Shown here piece after piece: positions 21,039 to 30,213 of a stretch of 64,000 bases of DNA (within the stretch, counting starts at the first letter, position 1; every line of letters starts with the position of its first letter). The DNA comes from Congregibacter litoralis KT71 (lineage in GTDB: Bacteria; Pseudomonadota; Gammaproteobacteria; Pseudomonadales; Halieaceae). Below the pieces are notes generated by a model, which did not search any database, was not told the DNA's origin, and worked only from the letters and a program-made list of their open reading frames with translations. The DNA is taken from assembly GCF_000153125.2 (NCBI RefSeq), contig NZ_CM002299.1, positions 3,697,238-3,761,237 of the forward strand, in the 5' to 3' direction. The position numbers and the translations under genes were made by a program.

Positions 21039-22343
21039 ATGAATTTCGTAATGCTCCAAGACAGGGATAGCCTTTCTCAACTAGACCCGAAAATTGCCGC
21101 ATTTTTTCTTGATTCAGACCTTTCTGACAATGGGCGAATAACGTTTTGCGGCGTTGCGACATTTGATGATTTAGTGCTCGTGGTTGCTCCGACAAACTCA
21201 CTAAAGTCAGTTAAACAGTTAGAGCTTTCGACTTGCGATACTGCGCTTCTGCTTATTCGCACACTGAACACGTACACTACTCAGTCAGAAAACGCTATTA
21301 AAGAGGGAGACGATTTCGACGTAAGAAGCCAAGGGCTCGGCATTCTTTCTAGTATTTTGTGGCTTTTAAAGGACTACTCCCACAATGGCCTGTACACCAA
21401 GCCCGCGAAGACTCGTGAAATAAACAAAGGAAGGGTCAATTGGCATAGAACAATTGCCAAGGGTTCAGCCTTAAAGGGCATGGGTGGTGTTCCCGTATAT
21501 CTGAGCTTGCATTCGGACAGATTAAGAATTGGCAGTGAGTCGGTCATTTCTCAAATACACGCCGAAATTGTACGTGAGATAGATATTTCCTTCGGGTGGT
21601 TAATCACTGGAAAAGAATCAACTCGGATAGCACGAGAGTTGGATTTCGCAACTTATTCTGCTATGCCTCATGATCTAAAAATTTATCAATTAAAAAGAGA
21701 GCTTGGACAAACTTATGGGGATCGCGACACAGCACTGATAAGAGCTATGATAAGTTTTCTCGAATCTAGATTTAATGGCGTAGCCGGAGAGTACCTGATT
21801 GGGGTGAGTTTCTTTCATTCAATATGGGAAAAGATGCTACGTGCAATTTTGCCAGGCGTAATTGATGTAAATAAAATCTTGCCTAAACCGTCAGTGTACT
21901 TAGAAGATGGCAAATCCTTGATTTATACAAAAGGGATGCTCACTGACATCGTAAGCAAACGAGAAGGCAAAGTTTCAGTAATTGATGCAAAATATTACCG
22001 GGCTACAGGAGCCGAAAGCGTCCCTGGATGGCCCGATATTGTGAAGCAAGTCTATTATGCAAACGCACTCAAGCTTTTATTCCCCAGAGACAAGGTGTTC
22101 AGTTGGTTTGCCTTTCCCGGTTTAACAAAAAAAAAGATCGACGAAGGCCCTGTAAGGCAGATTCGAATTACCAATCCCTCAACAGGGCAGCATCTGGATG
22201 AAGCTTTTCCTCCCATTGGTTGCGGCTACTTTTGCCCAATAGAAGTCATGAGGTTTTACGTATCATCTCAGGAGCTTAGTTTCGACAGTATAAGCACAAT
22301 ATTCGAAGAACTCGTAGAACCCGATTCAGAGGTGGCTAACTAA
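21039..22343 (+). CDS. LlaJI-like restriction subunit (McrC-like, PD-(D/E)XK)
   Basis: A 434-residue protein. The C-terminal half holds a PD-(D/E)XK site, LTDIVSKREGKVSVIDAKYY (about 300-319), i.e. D...(D/E)xK, with upstream VSFFHSIWEKMLRAILPG forming the usual first helix. The order methylase, McrB-like motor, PD-(D/E)XK protein matches LlaJI/BsuMI-type systems, in which two restriction proteins act together. The start is the ATG at 21039; an alternative could lie slightly downstream. It should be the cutting subunit. The gene is AT-rich like its neighbours, which suggests joint transfer. Confidence 0.85.
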   Translation: MNFVMLQDRDSLSQLDPKIAAFFLDSDLSDNGRITFCGVATFDDLVLVVAPTNSLKSVKQLELSTCDTALLLIRTLNTYTTQSENAIKEGDDFDVRSQGLGILSSILWLLKDYSHNGLYTKPAKTREINKGRVNWHRTIAKGSALKGMGGVPVYLSLHSDRLRIGSESVISQIHAEIVREIDISFGWLITGKESTRIARELDFATYSAMPHDLKIYQLKRELGQTYGDRDTALIRAMISFLESRFNGVAGEYLIGVSFFHSIWEKMLRAILPGVIDVNKILPKPSVYLEDGKSLIYTKGMLTDIVSKREGKVSVIDAKYYRATGAESVPGWPDIVKQVYYANALKLLFPRDKVFSWFAFPGLTKKKIDEGPVRQIRITNPSTGQHLDEAFPPIGCGYFCPIEVMRFYVSSQELSFDSISTIFEELVEPDSEVAN

Positions 22344-22577: not shown

Positions 22578-23939
22578 GATAACGTAAATTATCTTTCGCA
22601 CTTTTGAAGAGGGGCGGTGATCCCCCGAGTTGATAAGATTGAGTTGCGATGCTTAATCCGACAACAAAGGAAGATCACCACCATGAGCAACAATAGCGAG
22701 ACAAAGGACTTGGGTAAAGTCGTTCAGATCAATGATGCCAGGATACAGGATCACCTCGGTGAGCTTGTTCGAGGCACCGTTGAGGAGACGCTGAACGCGA
22801 TGCTGGACGCAGAGGCAGACGCCATGTGCGGAGCGCAGCGTTATGAGCGCAGCCCCGACCGGGTCGATACCCGCGCTGGTCACTACGAGCGCACCTTCCA
22901 CAGCAAAGCCGGCGAAGTGAAGCTGAAGATGCCGAAGCTGCGCAAGCAGACCTTCGAGACGGCGATCATTGAGCGCTACAAGCGGCGAGAGACTTCTATC
23001 GAGGAAGCCCTGATGGAGATGTACCTGGCTGGCGTCTCGGTCCGCCGGGTCGAGGATATCACCGAAGCCCTATGGGGCACCCGCGTCAGCTCCGGCACGG
23101 TCAGCAAGCTGAACAAAAAGGTCTACAAACATATTGAGACCTGGCGGAATCGGCCGATTCAGGGTGAATATCCGTACGTCTACCTGGACGGGATCGTATT
23201 GAAGCGCAGCTGGGCGGGCGAGGTGCGCAACGTATCTGTACTGGTCGGTATTGGTGTTGACCAGGATGGCTACCGCCATATTCTCGGCGTTCAGGAAGGT
23301 CACAAGGAGGATAAATCGGGCTGGGGAAGCTTTCTTGAACACCTGAAGTCCCGCGGCCTGAAGGGAGTGCGTATGATCATCTCCGATGCCTGCATGGGGC
23401 TCAGTGAATCAGCCGCAGAGTACTTCCCGGAAGCAGACTGGCAACGCTGCACCGTTCACTTCTATCGAAACGTCTTCAGCCATGTGCCACGGGCGAAGAT
23501 GCCGCAGGTGTCAGCCATGCTCAAAGCCATTCATGCTCAGGAGAGTCGAGAGGCCGCGCAGGACAAGGCGGTGAAGGTTGTGGAATCACTCAGAGCCATG
23601 CGGCTCCAGAAAGCCGCTGACTTGGTGGAGCGCTGTATTGACGAGACGCTGGGCTTCTACAGCTACCCTCAGACTCACTGGCTAAAAATCCGCACCAATA
23701 ACCCGCTGGAGCGCATCATGCGGGAGATACGGCGCCGCACGCGCGTCGTGGGTGCATTCCCTGACGGAGAGTCAGCAGTGATGCTGGTCGGCGCTAGGCT
23801 GCGGCACATCGCCAGCACCAAATGGGGAACCCGCAAGTACATGTCGATGGACTGGTTGCGGCAGCAAGATATGGAAACTCAGCAGTCAGCTTGAGGGGCA
23901 CCGTCCCAAAGAAAAGTGCGAAAAAATATTTACACTACC
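22578..23939 (+). mobile_element. IS256-family insertion sequence, copy 2 (1362 bp)
   Basis: Same sequence and orientation as the copy at 923-2284 over the whole element as far as I compared. It is flanked by its own 8-bp duplication, AAGAGGTA, at 22570-22577 and 23940-23947, so it inserted separately. It went into non-coding sequence between the restriction operon and the minus-strand gene at 24060. Confidence 0.95.
22683..23894 (+). CDS. IS256-family (Mutator-type) transposase, copy 2
   Basis: A 403-residue DDE transposase identical to copy 1, with the same ATG and the same acidic residues in YLDGIV, ISDACMGL and NPLERIM. Both copies look functional, so either may supply transposase to the other. 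It is transcribed in the same direction as the restriction operon before it and towards the convergent gene at 24060-24977. Confidence 0.95.
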   Translation: MSNNSETKDLGKVVQINDARIQDHLGELVRGTVEETLNAMLDAEADAMCGAQRYERSPDRVDTRAGHYERTFHSKAGEVKLKMPKLRKQTFETAIIERYKRRETSIEEALMEMYLAGVSVRRVEDITEALWGTRVSSGTVSKLNKKVYKHIETWRNRPIQGEYPYVYLDGIVLKRSWAGEVRNVSVLVGIGVDQDGYRHILGVQEGHKEDKSGWGSFLEHLKSRGLKGVRMIISDACMGLSESAAEYFPEADWQRCTVHFYRNVFSHVPRAKMPQVSAMLKAIHAQESREAAQDKAVKVVESLRAMRLQKAADLVERCIDETLGFYSYPQTHWLKIRTNNPLERIMREIRRRTRVVGAFPDGESAVMLVGARLRHIASTKWGTRKYMSMDWLRQQDMETQQSA

Positions 23940-27078: not shown

Positions 27079-27564
27079 CTACTCCCCGTCCATACCATCA
27101 AGAAGGTCATCAAGGAGGTCATCCAGGTTGCCGACTTGGTGATGCGGAACATGCCTGCAAAGATGCTTTTGGACTGCCAGAAACAGTCCATAGTCGCTAG
27201 GCGGCTCCAAGCGTGCCCCTAACTCGTAAAGGTACTGATCAATCCAGAGCGCCGCTGCACTCTGGTTGTCACGCGCATTCGGGGCACCGAATGCACACAC
27301 CAATCCCCTCTCGAACGGGGGGATATGAAAACATCGGCAGACCCAGGTCGCTAACCGGTTCACCTCACGGTTAAAGTGCGATTCCGCTCCCGTTCGGTCG
27401 ATAGTCGCACCTCTCTCCCGTCGCTGGGCGACCGCCAACCACTCTCGGGCATCTTCAAGCGCTGCGTTCGCGGCCTCTAGATCTTCAGCGGCTTCGCATG
27501 TGCGGCTGACCAACCCGCGTGGGTAATTACCGTTACATGAAGACGGATCAACGTAATCGTTCAT
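27079..27564 (-). CDS. hypothetical protein of the integrase operon (161 aa)
   Basis: Begins MNDYVDPSSCNGNYP with a four-base overlap with the integrase stop (27561-27564), so it is translated from the integrase mRNA. It has a coiled, alanine-rich helix (EDLEAANAALEDAREWLAVAQ) and an acidic aspartate-rich end (NLDDLLDDLLDGMDGE). The middle contains CRCFHIPPFERGLVCAFGAP. No family is recognised. The tight coupling suggests a role in island maintenance or excision control, which is inference. Confidence 0.65.
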   Translation of the reverse strand: MNDYVDPSSCNGNYPRGLVSRTCEAAEDLEAANAALEDAREWLAVAQRRERGATIDRTGAESHFNREVNRLATWVCRCFHIPPFERGLVCAFGAPNARDNQSAAALWIDQYLYELGARLEPPSDYGLFLAVQKHLCRHVPHHQVGNLDDLLDDLLDGMDGE

Positions 27565-28760
27565 TGTGAAACTCCTTCGTCAGATGAGTCATCAGACTGG
27601 GTGTGGGTATGAGCAGCCCAGAGCGCGGCGAAGGCCGAGCCATCCTGGCGAGTCAGGTTGGGTATCCACCGCGCGTAGCGCTTGTGGGTGATGGCTGAGT
27701 CGCTATGACCGAGGATCTGAGCGACCCAAAGCGGGTTTTCGCCGGCGGCGAGCCACAGCGTGGCGGCGGTATGGCGCGTTTGATACGGCGGACGCTTTGG
27801 GATCTTTAGTAGCGCCAGCAGTGGGTACCAGACGCGCTTGCAAACGTTATTGATAGACAATGGCTCACCCGAGCCGGTGCAGAACACCAGGTCGAGCTTG
27901 CCGGTGCGCTTGTGTTGTGCCTTTAGCGCTGCGTAGACCTCGTCGGACATGGGGATGTCACGAGCAGACTCCTCGGTCTTCGTGTCGGTCATGGCGCCAG
28001 CGACATAGCTTTCGCGCACCAGAATCATGCGCTGCTTAAAATCGATGTACTTCCACTTCAGGCCGTGGATTTCGCCGGTACGCATGCCGGTAAAGAAGCG
28101 GACGGTCATGTACGCATGAAAGTCCTCTCGAACTCCATCAAGAACCGCTTTCACCTCATCCAACGTGAACGGCTCCACCTTGGTTCTGGGGACCTTGAGC
28201 AGCTTGATACCCTGATAAGGATTGTCGAAGCCAAAGCGCTCCGAGGCCTCTCGCATTATCTGGCGAAGTGGCACCATGACCGTGTTGATTCGGGCAGCTG
28301 ACAGGCCCACCGAGCCGTCCTTGCGAGGAATACGGGCCAGCTGATTACGAAAGGCGAGGATGTCTTCCTTGCTAATCGCACTCATAGGAACCGATCCAAA
28401 CGCGGGTATCACGTGCTTGCTGAGTGAGTGCTCAAGCGTATTGATGTAGGAAGGCTTCCACCCGATACGGTTCTCTTCCATCCACTGGTCGGCAAAGGCC
28501 TTGAAGGTCGGCGTTTTGGCCGAGCGCTGCTCGATCTGCTTGTCGTGATCCGCAAACCGGGCGGCATTAGGCGACTCGGGGAAGTACGCCGCGTAGTCGA
28601 AGGTACCCAGCACGATCTCGCTTTCGACGCGCTGCAGGATGTCTTTCATCCGTTTGCGGTTTGCGGGCTTGTCTTCAAGGTGCGTGTACTCGCGACAGCG
28701 AACACCGCGATACCTGAAGTCGAAGAAGAGTTTGTTGCCTCTGGCGTTGACTGAACCCAT
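27561..28760 (-). CDS. int: tyrosine recombinase / genomic-island integrase
   Basis: A 399-residue phage-type integrase. The N-terminal arm-binding region (FFDFRYRGVRCREYT, about 12-26) is followed by a core-binding SAM-like domain (PTFKAFADQWMEENRIG) and the catalytic domain. Visible catalytic residues are R in FFTGMRTGEIHGLKW (about 221-235), the H-x-x-R-type TRHTAATLWLAAGENP (about 324-339), GHSDSAITHKRYARW (about 351-365) with the nucleophile tyrosine. It is oriented away from the tRNA-Met gene, about 1 kb from it, and lies 10 bp behind the excisionase-like gene. It should insert the island at the tRNA. It is not an IntI, because the IntI-specific extra domain is absent. Confidence 0.93.
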   Translation of the reverse strand: MGSVNARGNKLFFDFRYRGVRCREYTHLEDKPANRKRMKDILQRVESEIVLGTFDYAAYFPESPNAARFADHDKQIEQRSAKTPTFKAFADQWMEENRIGWKPSYINTLEHSLSKHVIPAFGSVPMSAISKEDILAFRNQLARIPRKDGSVGLSAARINTVMVPLRQIMREASERFGFDNPYQGIKLLKVPRTKVEPFTLDEVKAVLDGVREDFHAYMTVRFFTGMRTGEIHGLKWKYIDFKQRMILVRESYVAGAMTDTKTEESARDIPMSDEVYAALKAQHKRTGKLDLVFCTGSGEPLSINNVCKRVWYPLLALLKIPKRPPYQTRHTAATLWLAAGENPLWVAQILGHSDSAITHKRYARWIPNLTRQDGSAFAALWAAHTHTQSDDSSDEGVSQ

Positions 28761-28770
28761 GACCGACCTC

Positions 28771-28992
28771 CTATTGAATGCCGGCCATGAGCTGGCCTAC
28801 GTGACTGGGGCGCTGCATGTCCTCTTCGATGCGTTCCCAGAGGTACAGGATCTTCCGCCCACCAAAGGGCCGGATGTAGTGCACTCCCTCCAGGAGTACG
28901 GAGTCCTTCAGCTGGTTTCGAATGGTTCGCGCGTCGTACTTAATGCGCGATGAGAGTTCCTCAGTCGTGAGGTAGGTCGTTGCTGCGTCCAT
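28771..28992 (-). CDS. excisionase-like HTH protein
   Basis: A 73-residue protein beginning MDAATTYLTTEELSSRIKYD. The pattern (Y-L-T-T-E-E-L-S-x-R-I-x-x-D, then T-I-R-N-Q-L, then VHYIRPFGGRKILYLW) is that of winged-helix AlpA/Xis-like proteins. These bend att-site DNA and favour excision. It is immediately upstream of the integrase and probably shares its promoter in the region up to about 29100. A GGAGATGGACCT sequence precedes the ATG. Confidence 0.78.
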   Translation of the reverse strand: MDAATTYLTTEELSSRIKYDARTIRNQLKDSVLLEGVHYIRPFGGRKILYLWERIEEDMQRPSHVGQLMAGIQ

Positions 28993-29165
28993 AGGTCCAT
29001 CTCCAAAATTCGGCCTATCCGAGCACTGTGCTGCGAATTTCCTGCCGATGAGATGAACCTACCGGTGATACAGAATCCTGCTTGACGGAGGGAAACGGGG
29101 GTAAATCCGAAGGGTTCCCGAGCGTTATTTGGAGCAAAAGCTATATTTTTCACCCACTACATATC

Positions 29166-29194
29166 GCCGCGCGCAACCGAAGGTTGTGCGCGGC
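29166..29194. repeat. 13-bp hairpin GCCGCGCGCAACC / GGTTGTGCGCGGC
   Basis: An inverted repeat with a 3-base GAA loop and one G.T mismatch, between the excisionase gene and the att-like repeats. No run of T follows on either strand, so it is not a classical terminator. It may be a protein-binding or RNA-structure element. Confidence 0.7.
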
Positions 29195-29262
29195 GCGCCG
29201 ACCTATGCAGTCAAGCAGGCACACAATCGATGGGAGCGCGGCGAAGCGGGAAACGCGACGAT

Positions 29263-29734
29263 GGTCTCAATGTGGTCTCAAACTAGAAGAAGCTGGCTGA
29301 GCACAGCAGCATCGATGTTGGGATCAATTTTTGGGTCGCGGTCTCAATGTGGTCTCAGATCAATGGCCCCAAAAGCGCTGACTACAGCACAACAAATGCT
29401 GGGGTCATTTGAAGGTTTATGAAGTCGACACGCGATGACTACAGCACGAAAAATGCTGAGGTCATTTGCGGACTCAAAATCTCAACAAGCGGTGACTACA
29501 GCACGGAAAATGCTGGGGTCATTTCCAGGCTCAAAATCTCAACAAGCGGTGACTACAGCAGGCAAAATGCTGGGGTCATTTCCAGGTCCAAAATCTCAAC
29601 AAGCGATGACTTCAGCACGAAAAATGCTGGGGTCGTTCGCGGGGGGATGGTCTCAGCAATCGATGACTACAGCACAACCCAATGTTGGGGTCACTTTTTC
29701 AAAGTGGTCTCAATATGGTCTCAATTTGGTCTCA
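29263..29734 (+). promoter_or_regulatory. eight GGTCTCA motifs, phased at 11 bp (putative integrase arm sites)
   Basis: GGTCTCA occurs at 29263, 29274, 29340, 29351, 29649, 29706, 29717 and 29728. Within each cluster copies are exactly 11 bp apart, about one helical turn, usually as TGGTCTCAAT. The clusters bracket the tandem core-like sites. This layout matches arm-type binding sites of a tyrosine integrase; the identity of the bound protein is inferred. Confidence 0.6.
29303..29695 (+). repeat. tandem array of tRNA anticodon-stem-like core sites (57-bp period)
   Basis: Seven sites have the form (A/T)CAGCA, 7 or 8 variable bases, TG(C/T)TG(G/A)G(G/A)TC. They start at 29303, 29384, 29441, 29498, 29555, 29612 and 29669; the last six are spaced by exactly 57 bp. 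The adjacent tRNA-Met has ACAGCA-TTCATAA-TGCTGGGGTC at its anticodon arm, on the opposite strand. Loops in the array include CAACAAA, CGAAAAA (twice), CGGAAAA and GGCAAAA. The bases between sites are also similar, with TCAAAATCTCAACAAGCG repeated. Open frames across the array stay open because 57 is a multiple of three. Confidence 0.9.
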
Positions 29735-29800
29735 AACGCAAAATTTGAGATTTGACCGCCGAAAGGAGCGTGCTAAGATACTGAAAATTAAGAAGAAAAT

Positions 29801-29877
29801 TGGTAGCTACGGGTGGACTTGAACCACCGACCCCAGCATTATGAATGCTGTGCTCTAACCAGCTGAGCTACGTAGCC
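29801..29877 (-). tRNA. tRNA-Met (elongator, anticodon CAT)
   Basis: A 77-nt cloverleaf with encoded CCA. The acceptor 5' strand is GGCTACG, the D arm GCTCAGCTGGTTAGAGC, the anticodon arm CAGCA-TTCATAA-TGCTG, the T arm GGTGG-TTCAAGT-CCACC, and the 3' strand CGTAGCT-ACCA. It matches elongator tRNA-Met rather than initiator (no three G.C pairs in the anticodon stem) or tRNA-Ile(CAU). The end pair is G1.U72 instead of G-C. It marks the border between the island (left) and the core chromosome (right). Confidence 0.95.
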
Positions 29878-29892
29878 ACGGCGTTGTACAGA

Positions 29893-29907
29893 CCCCCATT
29901 GCGGGGG
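29893..29907. other. short GC hairpin upstream of tRNA-Met
   Basis: CCCCC-ATTGC-GGGGG forms a 5-bp stem between the tRNA gene and the small locus at 30013. Flanking TGTACA sequences occur on both sides. It could terminate the Fur-regulated transcript or be part of the tRNA promoter region. No T-run follows. Confidence 0.4.
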
Positions 29908-30012
29908 ACGCGAATTCTGTACATTTGGCTCCCGCAAGTCAACCTCCCAAGCTATCAATTTATGCCGTTTGCGGGGCGCTCGGGCTCATGGGGGCCGCCC
30001 GTTCCGAAGCCA

Positions 30013-30213
30013 CTATCGGCAGCTCCGCAGAACGATTAGCTTTAGCTGAGCCGCCGACACCTCGTCCATGCATTGCAGTTGTTCAGCTTTTACCGCGCCA
30101 AGCTTTAGTAAGGTGATGATCAGCGACTCGCTGAGCGAACAGCGAACTGCTCCATCGATGTTGCGCTCCATTTCTACAGGAGACTGCGCCGGAACACCGT
30201 TCAGCGCGTCCAT
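30013..30213 (-). CDS. small hypothetical protein (66 aa), Fur-box-controlled locus
   Basis: Begins MDALNGVPAQSPVEMERN and has a helical half (SLSESLIITLLKLGAVKAEQ) ending VLRSCR. Its ATG overlaps the end of a 25-codon leader ORF by 13 bases, so coupled translation is possible. The leader has the strong ribosome binding site and a Fur-like box lies about 70 bp further upstream. No family is recognised (it is not HemP or Bfd). It is the first chromosomal locus outside the island. Confidence 0.45.
   Translation of the reverse strand: MDALNGVPAQSPVEMERNIDGAVRCSLSESLIITLLKLGAVKAEQLQCMDEVSAAQLKLIVLRSCR

Follow-up and report, generated by a model that had tools for sequence, protein, structure and literature searches.

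The stretch analysed here (the window) comprised 64,000 nucleotides of the 4.35-Mb genome of Congregibacter litoralis KT71 (C1:3697238-3761237). A tyrosine integrase of 399 aa, assigned to the integrases by PHROGs, was encoded on the minus strand (27561..28760). It matched Arm-DNA-bind_2/DUF3596 (PF12167, E 7.5e-25, residues 1-64), a SAM-like domain (PF14659, E 6.7e-12) and Phage_integrase (PF00589, E 6.2e-19), and so carried the arm-binding, core-binding and catalytic domains of a bivalent integrase. A 73-aa ORF from the ORF list lay upstream of the integrase on the same strand (28771..28992). Within the E-value limits applied, Pfam, PHROGs, NCBIfam and PDB sequences gave no match to it, and it is a candidate excisionase or HTH protein by its size and place only.

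The integration target and int-proximal att junction was a tRNA-Met (CAT; 29801..29877, minus strand; ARAGORN, Rfam RF00005). In an Rfam scan of 28500-30200 this tRNA was the sole match above the gathering score. Two sub-threshold matches, HPnc0260 at 29695-29838 (plus strand; 42.5 bits, gathering 59) and Plastid-ycf2 at 29803-29877, both overlapped the tRNA and are probably due to chance. The 3' part of the tRNA was present at two more places in the genome: a 35-bp probe gave three matches in one orientation (3565475, 3624041 and 3727048), separated by 58.6 and 103.0 kb, the arrangement of tRNA integration with a direct repeat at the far end. Two islands appear to be stacked at the one tRNA-Met, each with an integrase of this type adjoining its right end (mutual identity 96%). 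The stacked islands (C1:3565475-3727082; L013, L016 and window position 29801) had nearly the same integrase and different arm-type repeats.

The junctions were identical from a point shortly outside the 3' end of the tRNA up to the first base past TTATGAA, after which the two left ends continued as CGTGCTGG and TGTGCTGG. The limits of identity between tRNA and left junctions were used to place an inferred recombination core, CGACCCCAGCA-TTATGAA-TGCTGTGCTCT (29828..29856, no strand assigned). These limits would fit an exchange near the anticodon loop rather than prove its exact place. The left ends of the islands (1.4 kb each) held no exact arm motif and no right-half copy at ≥9/11 besides the junction, and the accessory sites described below are therefore placed on the integrase side. 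One left-half match of 9/11 was found in the left-end scan, in L016.

The palindrome array between integrase and tRNA-Met

Between the integrase with its 73-aa ORF and the tRNA-Met, seven two-sided sites of the form TGACyaCAGCA-N7(8)-TGCTGgGGTCA were found on the plus strand (29298-29693). The initial annotation had reported seven copies, six of them spaced by exactly 57 bp; both statements were borne out, the six being copies 2-7. Direct reading and rescans, with mismatches scored against TGACTACAGCA-N7-TGCTGGGGTCA, placed the core-like palindromes at 29298..29326 (degenerate, loop GCATCGA, four mismatches), 29379..29407 (loop CAACAAA, none), 29436..29464 (CGAAAAA, one), 29493..29521 (CGGAAAA, none), 29550..29578 (GGCAAAA, none), 29607..29635 (CGAAAAA, two) and 29664..29693 (8-nt loop CAACCCAA, one). 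The first step was 81 bp and the following five were exactly 57 bp; Tandem Repeats Finder gave a period of 57, 5.3 copies and a score of 354. Since 57 bp amount to ~5.4 helical turns, the units do not lie on one face of the helix. A search for CAGCA-N7-TGCTGGGGTC with ≤3 mismatches gave 16 matches in the window against 2.3 expected (100 shuffles, maximum 7), of which 14 were six array copies and the tRNA, each counted on both strands. No blastn match to the array stretch (29290-29740) was found in phages or plasmids, and the exact palindrome had 0 matches in viral contigs.

As had also been noted, the stem and 3' flank of the units were identical on direct reading to the anticodon arm of the tRNA-Met, with the array on the opposite strand. 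The units are in fact palindromes (TGAC...GTCA) that extend past what had been described. The loops had been said to differ from copy to copy, which holds in that six are distinct, but copies 3 and 6 share CGAAAAA and several loops are A-rich, so that they are not freely varied; a copy with an 8-nt loop was present in the sister element L016 as well. Anticodon loops of tRNAs carry T at position 2 (U33). Because the seven sites have common stems and loops that differ at the usual position of the overlap, they could be taken as a reservoir of att variants for alternative targets or as scars of past integrations into other tRNAs, as the initial annotation had proposed. We regard this as barely credible: T is absent from position 2 of all six 7-nt loops, none of them matches the tRNA overlap TTCATAA at more than 4/7, and the spacer is not copied in relatives (below). 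Functional attB/attP exchange sites were considered and rejected on the same lack of overlap identity in these six loops.

The palindromes were interleaved with short direct repeats. Exact TGGTCTCA occurred seven times in the window, always on the plus strand and always within 29262-29734: as a pair 11 bp apart (29262..29280, starts 29262 and 29273), as the second member of a pair with CGGTCTCA (one mismatch; 29339..29357, starts 29339 and 29350, 11 bp apart), singly within the array (29648..29655) and as a triplet with an 11-bp period (29705..29734, starts 29705, 29716 and 29727). With one mismatch allowed, the motif was not above chance window-wide (42 against 46 expected). The repeats are probably arm-type sites of the integrase.

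Sister elements and association with the integrase

The nearest named relative in the searches was gamma proteobacterium NOR5-3, with two integrases 98-99% identical to that of the window. The array was present in four elements, with seven copies in the window, seven in L010 and six in L009 (both NOR5-3) and two in L016, the second island of the window's genome; the 57-bp steps were retained in the three larger arrays. An inverted repeat of two half-sites around N7 or N8 was found throughout this window family except in one L016 unit, which had a poor left half.

The L016 element and the window differed in one respect that separates the two kinds of repeat. The arm-like repeats of L016 were TGGTCACC, replacing TGGTCTCA, and its integrase was identical to that of the window at 27/35 of residues 1-35, a part of the PF12167 arm-binding domain, and at 355/363 of the rest, while the core-like half TGCTGGGGTCA was unchanged. 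The arm-type repeats thus differed along with the N-terminal domain of the integrase in this single natural pair, on which the dissociation of arm and core is based. Because repeats and N-terminus both changed, the 11-bp-spaced repeats behave as arm-type sites, and because TGCTGGGGTCA is the same in both elements, the palindromes behave as sites of the core-binding and catalytic part.

Conservation within the unit was measured over 14 units (13 distinct) from three elements. Mean column entropy was 0.19 in the left half-site, 0.20 in the right, 0.43 in the loop and 0.67 in the linker (P 0.0004 by column permutation; third, not first, among 57 circular shifts), and neighbouring units had loops and linkers in common. 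These data bear on neutral tandem duplication, by which one core-like site derived from the tRNA or from attP would have been amplified by slippage or unequal crossing-over into functionless copies. The variation in copy number (7, 7, 6 and 2), the 57-bp spacing common to the three larger arrays and the loops and linkers shared by neighbours are what such a process would leave. Against it, half-sites are more conserved than loops and linkers, and islands at other tRNAs have one to three sites at preferred distances (below). Neutral duplication accounts for the amplification, not for a family-wide site, and as an explanation of the whole we consider it improbable.

The array was associated with this integrase in the 140 family genomes checked. 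The two-sided pattern with ≤2 mismatches was found in 5/140, namely the genome of the window, that of NOR5-3, two in which the match was the tRNA-Met itself and one with an isolated match; palindromic arrays occurred only in the two genomes that hold this integrase at ≥96% identity. The array was absent from the congeners G400 and G401 (91 and 89% complete), which are without this integrase, and five further genomes of the family, whose integrases are 48-64% identical, did not have the palindromic form. Relatives of the integrase were found in 53/390 genomes of the order (E ≤ 1e-40), 7/140 of the family (1e-90), 10/369 of the class (1e-110), and 8/18 of one genus and 55/80 of another (both 1e-100), these samples overlapping. 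A search for relatives in viral contigs gave four stretches that fitted a pattern, 0 of them confirmed. Phages yielded 1156 records, all <60% identical (~31% for the best among the matches listed), and plasmids 194 records, one of them in the 60-80% band; phage and plasmid relatives were left out of the att-site analysis.

Half-sites that follow the target tRNA

Most of what follows concerns integrases at other tRNAs that share the PF12167 arm-binding domain and have 45-64% identity to the integrase of the window. From a first set of 68 matches, 53 loci were entered (49 fetched, together with the window, L016, L009 and L010), and from a second set of 81 matches 65 were entered (60 newly fetched and five from before). 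The 126 loci collected were oriented on the integrase; 78 with a complete tRNA facing the integrase were scored, and 48 without a complete tRNA on the expected strand were left out of scoring. The query was 11 nt of the locus's own tRNA, starting at the last base of the loop and covering the 3' anticodon stem and variable loop, and a site was defined as a match of ≥9/11 within 500 bp on the inverted strand.

An own-tRNA half-site was found at 63/78 loci on the inverted strand and at 1/78 on the other. By tRNA, the counts were 24/26 for Val, 30/32 for Gly, 5/9 for Met (window and L010 included), 2/6 for Arg-ACG, 0/3 for Arg-CCG, 1/1 for Lys and 1/1 for Arg-TCG. After removal of near-duplicates and of the window family, 31/46 non-redundant loci had the site on the inverted strand and 1/46 on the other, compared with a mean of 1.8/46 and a maximum of 5/46 in 20 rounds of dinucleotide shuffling. 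The mean best own match was 8.96/11 against 7.96 under permutation of the tRNA labels, the observed mean being reached in 0/20000 permutations; the 18 loci outside Val and Gly alone gave P of about 0.005. An earlier test on 24 loci, window included, had given the same picture. Among the 48 unscored loci, the 3' part of the tRNA was readable in five, of which four had a site on the inverted strand (L016 and three relatives), L101 had none, and 0/5 had one on the other strand. Loci of one tRNA are related, and the 31 sites may therefore represent perhaps four to six independent changes of target. Individual loci illustrate the co-variation: in L140 and L141 both tRNA-Gly and site read AGGTCGGGGTC, and in L095 the tRNA-Val reads TGGTAGGGGTC and the site GGGTAGGGGTC, while in L119, L127, L129 and L132 the site is not an exact copy of its own tRNA.

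The suggestion that the repeats are multiplied core-type sites is supported by this result, since over much of the family the motif changes with the tRNA that the integrase targets. The same dependence led us to discard two candidates. Replication iterons, which the initial annotation had offered as one possibility, should be independent of the target, and there is no reason to expect that sites of an excisionase would vary with the target tRNA.

Not every relative needs the half-site, as 15/46 non-redundant loci were without a ≥9/11 own-tRNA match (3/3 for Arg(CCG), 4/6 for Arg(ACG), 4/7 for Met, 2/12 for Val and 2/16 for Gly). The initial annotation had proposed a search of related islands at tRNA-Met for the array; the sister elements have it (7, 6 and 2 copies), but four relatives of 57-64% identity at the same tRNA-Met had no convincing site. 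L052 (64%) had one 9/11 match, 465 bp away and inside or near a small ORF, which is included in the 31 and by its position is probably due to chance; L053 (63%) had other DNA between integrase and tRNA; L101 (64%) and L102 (57%) had no site. Either, then, the window lineage did not simply receive the site from its nearest sampled relatives or these have lost it. In L053 (G106) the integrase and the tRNA-Met were ~2 kb apart, with a transposase-like stretch, recognised by eye, between them that may have removed the accessory sites.

The shape of the site was examined in 45 sites of non-redundant relatives, excluding the window family and including only matches of ≥9/11, a selection that partly causes the high match inside the half-site and leaves the flanks and the A at the next position unaffected. 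Own-tRNA match exceeded the other-tRNA control over columns 0-6 of 11. Columns 7-10 (GGTC) are common to most tRNAs and do not discriminate, so that the target-specific part amounts to about six or seven positions. The own-tRNA match was limited to the half-site: the spacer side was at background, and the base after the 11 nt was A in 44/45 sites, where agreement with the tRNA was 13%. Flank columns +27 and +29 exceeded the control, for which we can offer no explanation other than relatedness of the loci. Left half-sites were not evident in the relatives, and the two-sided form was seen only in the window lineage. Copying of the half-site without the spacer, followed by A, favours core-type integrase-binding sites over scars of repeated integration, iterons or stored att variants.

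The same property bears on an RNA-level role, in which the minus-strand array would act as a 3' trailer of the tRNA, forming hairpins or pairing with the anticodon arm, and so affect expression of the tRNA or island. Complementarity between the minus-strand array and the 3' anticodon stem and variable loop of the tRNA could be counted in its favour, as could the sub-threshold HPnc0260 match (29695-29838, plus strand; 42.5 bits against a gathering score of 59). An RNA-level element is nevertheless very improbable, given that in relatives the loop is not copied, that A is the next base in 44/45 of their sites with 13% agreement with the tRNA, and that in the Val and Gly loci shown the tRNA is separated from the site by terminator-like hairpins, recognised by eye.

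Positions of the sites recurred among loci. In Val loci the best match lay 189-202 bp from the tRNA in 26/26, and in Gly loci sites lay at 188-191, 254-266, 335-338 and 370-392 bp, most of them at 188-191, 265, 335-338 or ~372 bp, with one at 171 bp and a maximum of three in a locus. The two L016 sites are 77 bp apart, the same step as from 188 to 265 in many Gly loci. In the Val and Gly loci inspected, arm-like repeats came after the site on its tRNA side. A small XRE-type-like ORF, identified by eye, lay between integrase and att in L011, L062, L069, L073, L084 and L085; it was read toward the tRNA, and none was seen in the window.

The main rival to a recombination element is autorepression as in KplE1. 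The array would then be a set of operators from which bound integrase represses the xis-like/int operon, serving promoter control. It lies upstream of the xis-like start, at a distance of ~300-700 bp, and integrases are documented to regulate themselves from att sites, a mode of control predicted to be widespread (PMC2951348). A scan for sigma-70-like promoters over 28900-29900, which is a weak test, gave none on the minus strand and two on the plus strand, and in several Val and Gly relatives the XRE-like ORF separates integrase and site, leaving the site downstream of it and not at a promoter. We consider an operator array unlikely.

Proposed accessory core-type sites and known integration systems

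We favour the reading, at roughly two chances in three and on sequence grounds, that the repeats are accessory core-type sites of the element's own integrase, set inverted in the int-proximal att arm, which would hold the enzyme near attP without productive exchange. In much of the wider family the element takes a simpler form, one to three half-sites of 11-12 bp that resemble the outer half of the core in the target tRNA, which comprises the 3' anticodon stem and the variable loop and mostly ends in GGTCA. In the window lineage both half-sites stand around a 7-bp spacer and are amplified as a 57-bp tandem unit, and the window array is best seen as the amplified two-sided form of an element common in the family, the order in which the two forms arose being inferred. 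The core-binding and catalytic domains of the integrase may dock on the array as on the real core while the N-terminal domain holds the nearby arm repeats. Because the array spacer does not match the overlap of the tRNA, the docked complex would be expected not to undergo productive strand exchange with it. By holding, positioning or titrating integrase beside attP, the array could tune integration and excision. Site and true core face each other across the arm repeats, so that integrase bound to either could reach the same arm sites, and we picture competition or bridging between the two.

A more specific proposal, whose parts we advance jointly and tentatively, is doubtful as a whole. The array might be an integrase sink. 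Its pseudo-core sites, incompetent for recombination, would form a bank that is tunable by copy number and captures the element's own integrase and that of sibling islands stacked at the same tRNA, which would have the same core motif and a different arm motif. Such a bank might set the excision frequency and guard against sibling-driven excision, and the integrase might resize it by recombining units that share a spacer. The proposal further supposes that many such islands carry a target-matched inverted core half-site as an unnamed part of attP.

Compared with known systems, the array is a variation on the bivalent attachment site of tyrosine integrases, with a testable regularity at the level of the family. 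Likenesses to lambda-type att sites are the N-terminal arm-binding domain, arm-like direct repeats near a core inverted repeat, a 7-bp spacer in the core and direct-repeat junctions. The core-type sites known in lambda are only the four half-sites at the exchange point, whereas here extra inverted core-type half-sites lie ~100-500 bp off in the arm, and in the window lineage they form a 57-bp tandem array. The attP of phage HP1 has integrase sites of two sequence types, and HP1 integrase protects core-like sequences outside the exchange core. Annotated HP1 attP showed a 9-bp GATTTTAAA direct repeat, and a repeat search of it gave only two-copy, short or imperfect direct repeats. The core-like sequences outside the core are the point of likeness. 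The window integrase shares with the IntBPP-1 subgroup the PF12167/DUF3596 arm-binding domain; the available part of PMC8138268 describes the proteins, not accessory core-type sites in the attachment regions. In KplE1, the intS promoter overlaps the att site itself, and attL is autoregulated (PMC2951348). That system resembles ours in being a tRNA-linked integrase whose core- and arm-type sites are also regulatory, and differs in that the extra sites here are separate from the core, with no promoter-like site found on the int strand in 28900-29900.

In a search of the open-licence literature with few terms, accessory core half-sites that are inverted and match the target tRNA were not found described, and their occurrence in many related islands points to a control element of DNA integration that has received little description. 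The usual drawing of an attachment site for an arm-binding integrase shows one core with arm sites; a target-matched inverted core half-site that recurs in islands at several tRNAs suggests that the integration machine has a further component. The half-site could help in finding the limits of attP, in predicting integrase specificity from sequence and in choosing a minimal attP for integration tools. Since one genome holds two sister elements with different arm motifs and copy numbers, the role of the extra core sites is directly testable.

Several minor observations concern the ends and contents of the islands. In the inner NOR5-3 element, one end (L009:9030-9051, minus-strand reading) reads GAGCG-CAGCATTATGAA-AACGG, without the tRNA 3' part and flank seen at other junctions, and is an att junction of rearranged or alternative type. 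Island 1 has, immediately within its left end (L016:10290-10885), a ParD-family antitoxin gene (TIGR02606, called on L016), followed by a small ORF that is its toxin partner by position only, and the left end of island 2 (L013:8724-9200) has sequence that is similar by eye to this ParD region. Within the island, an LlaJI-type restriction endonuclease gene (PF09563, window 21039-22343) is followed by one for a Mutator-family transposase (PF00872, window 22617-23894).
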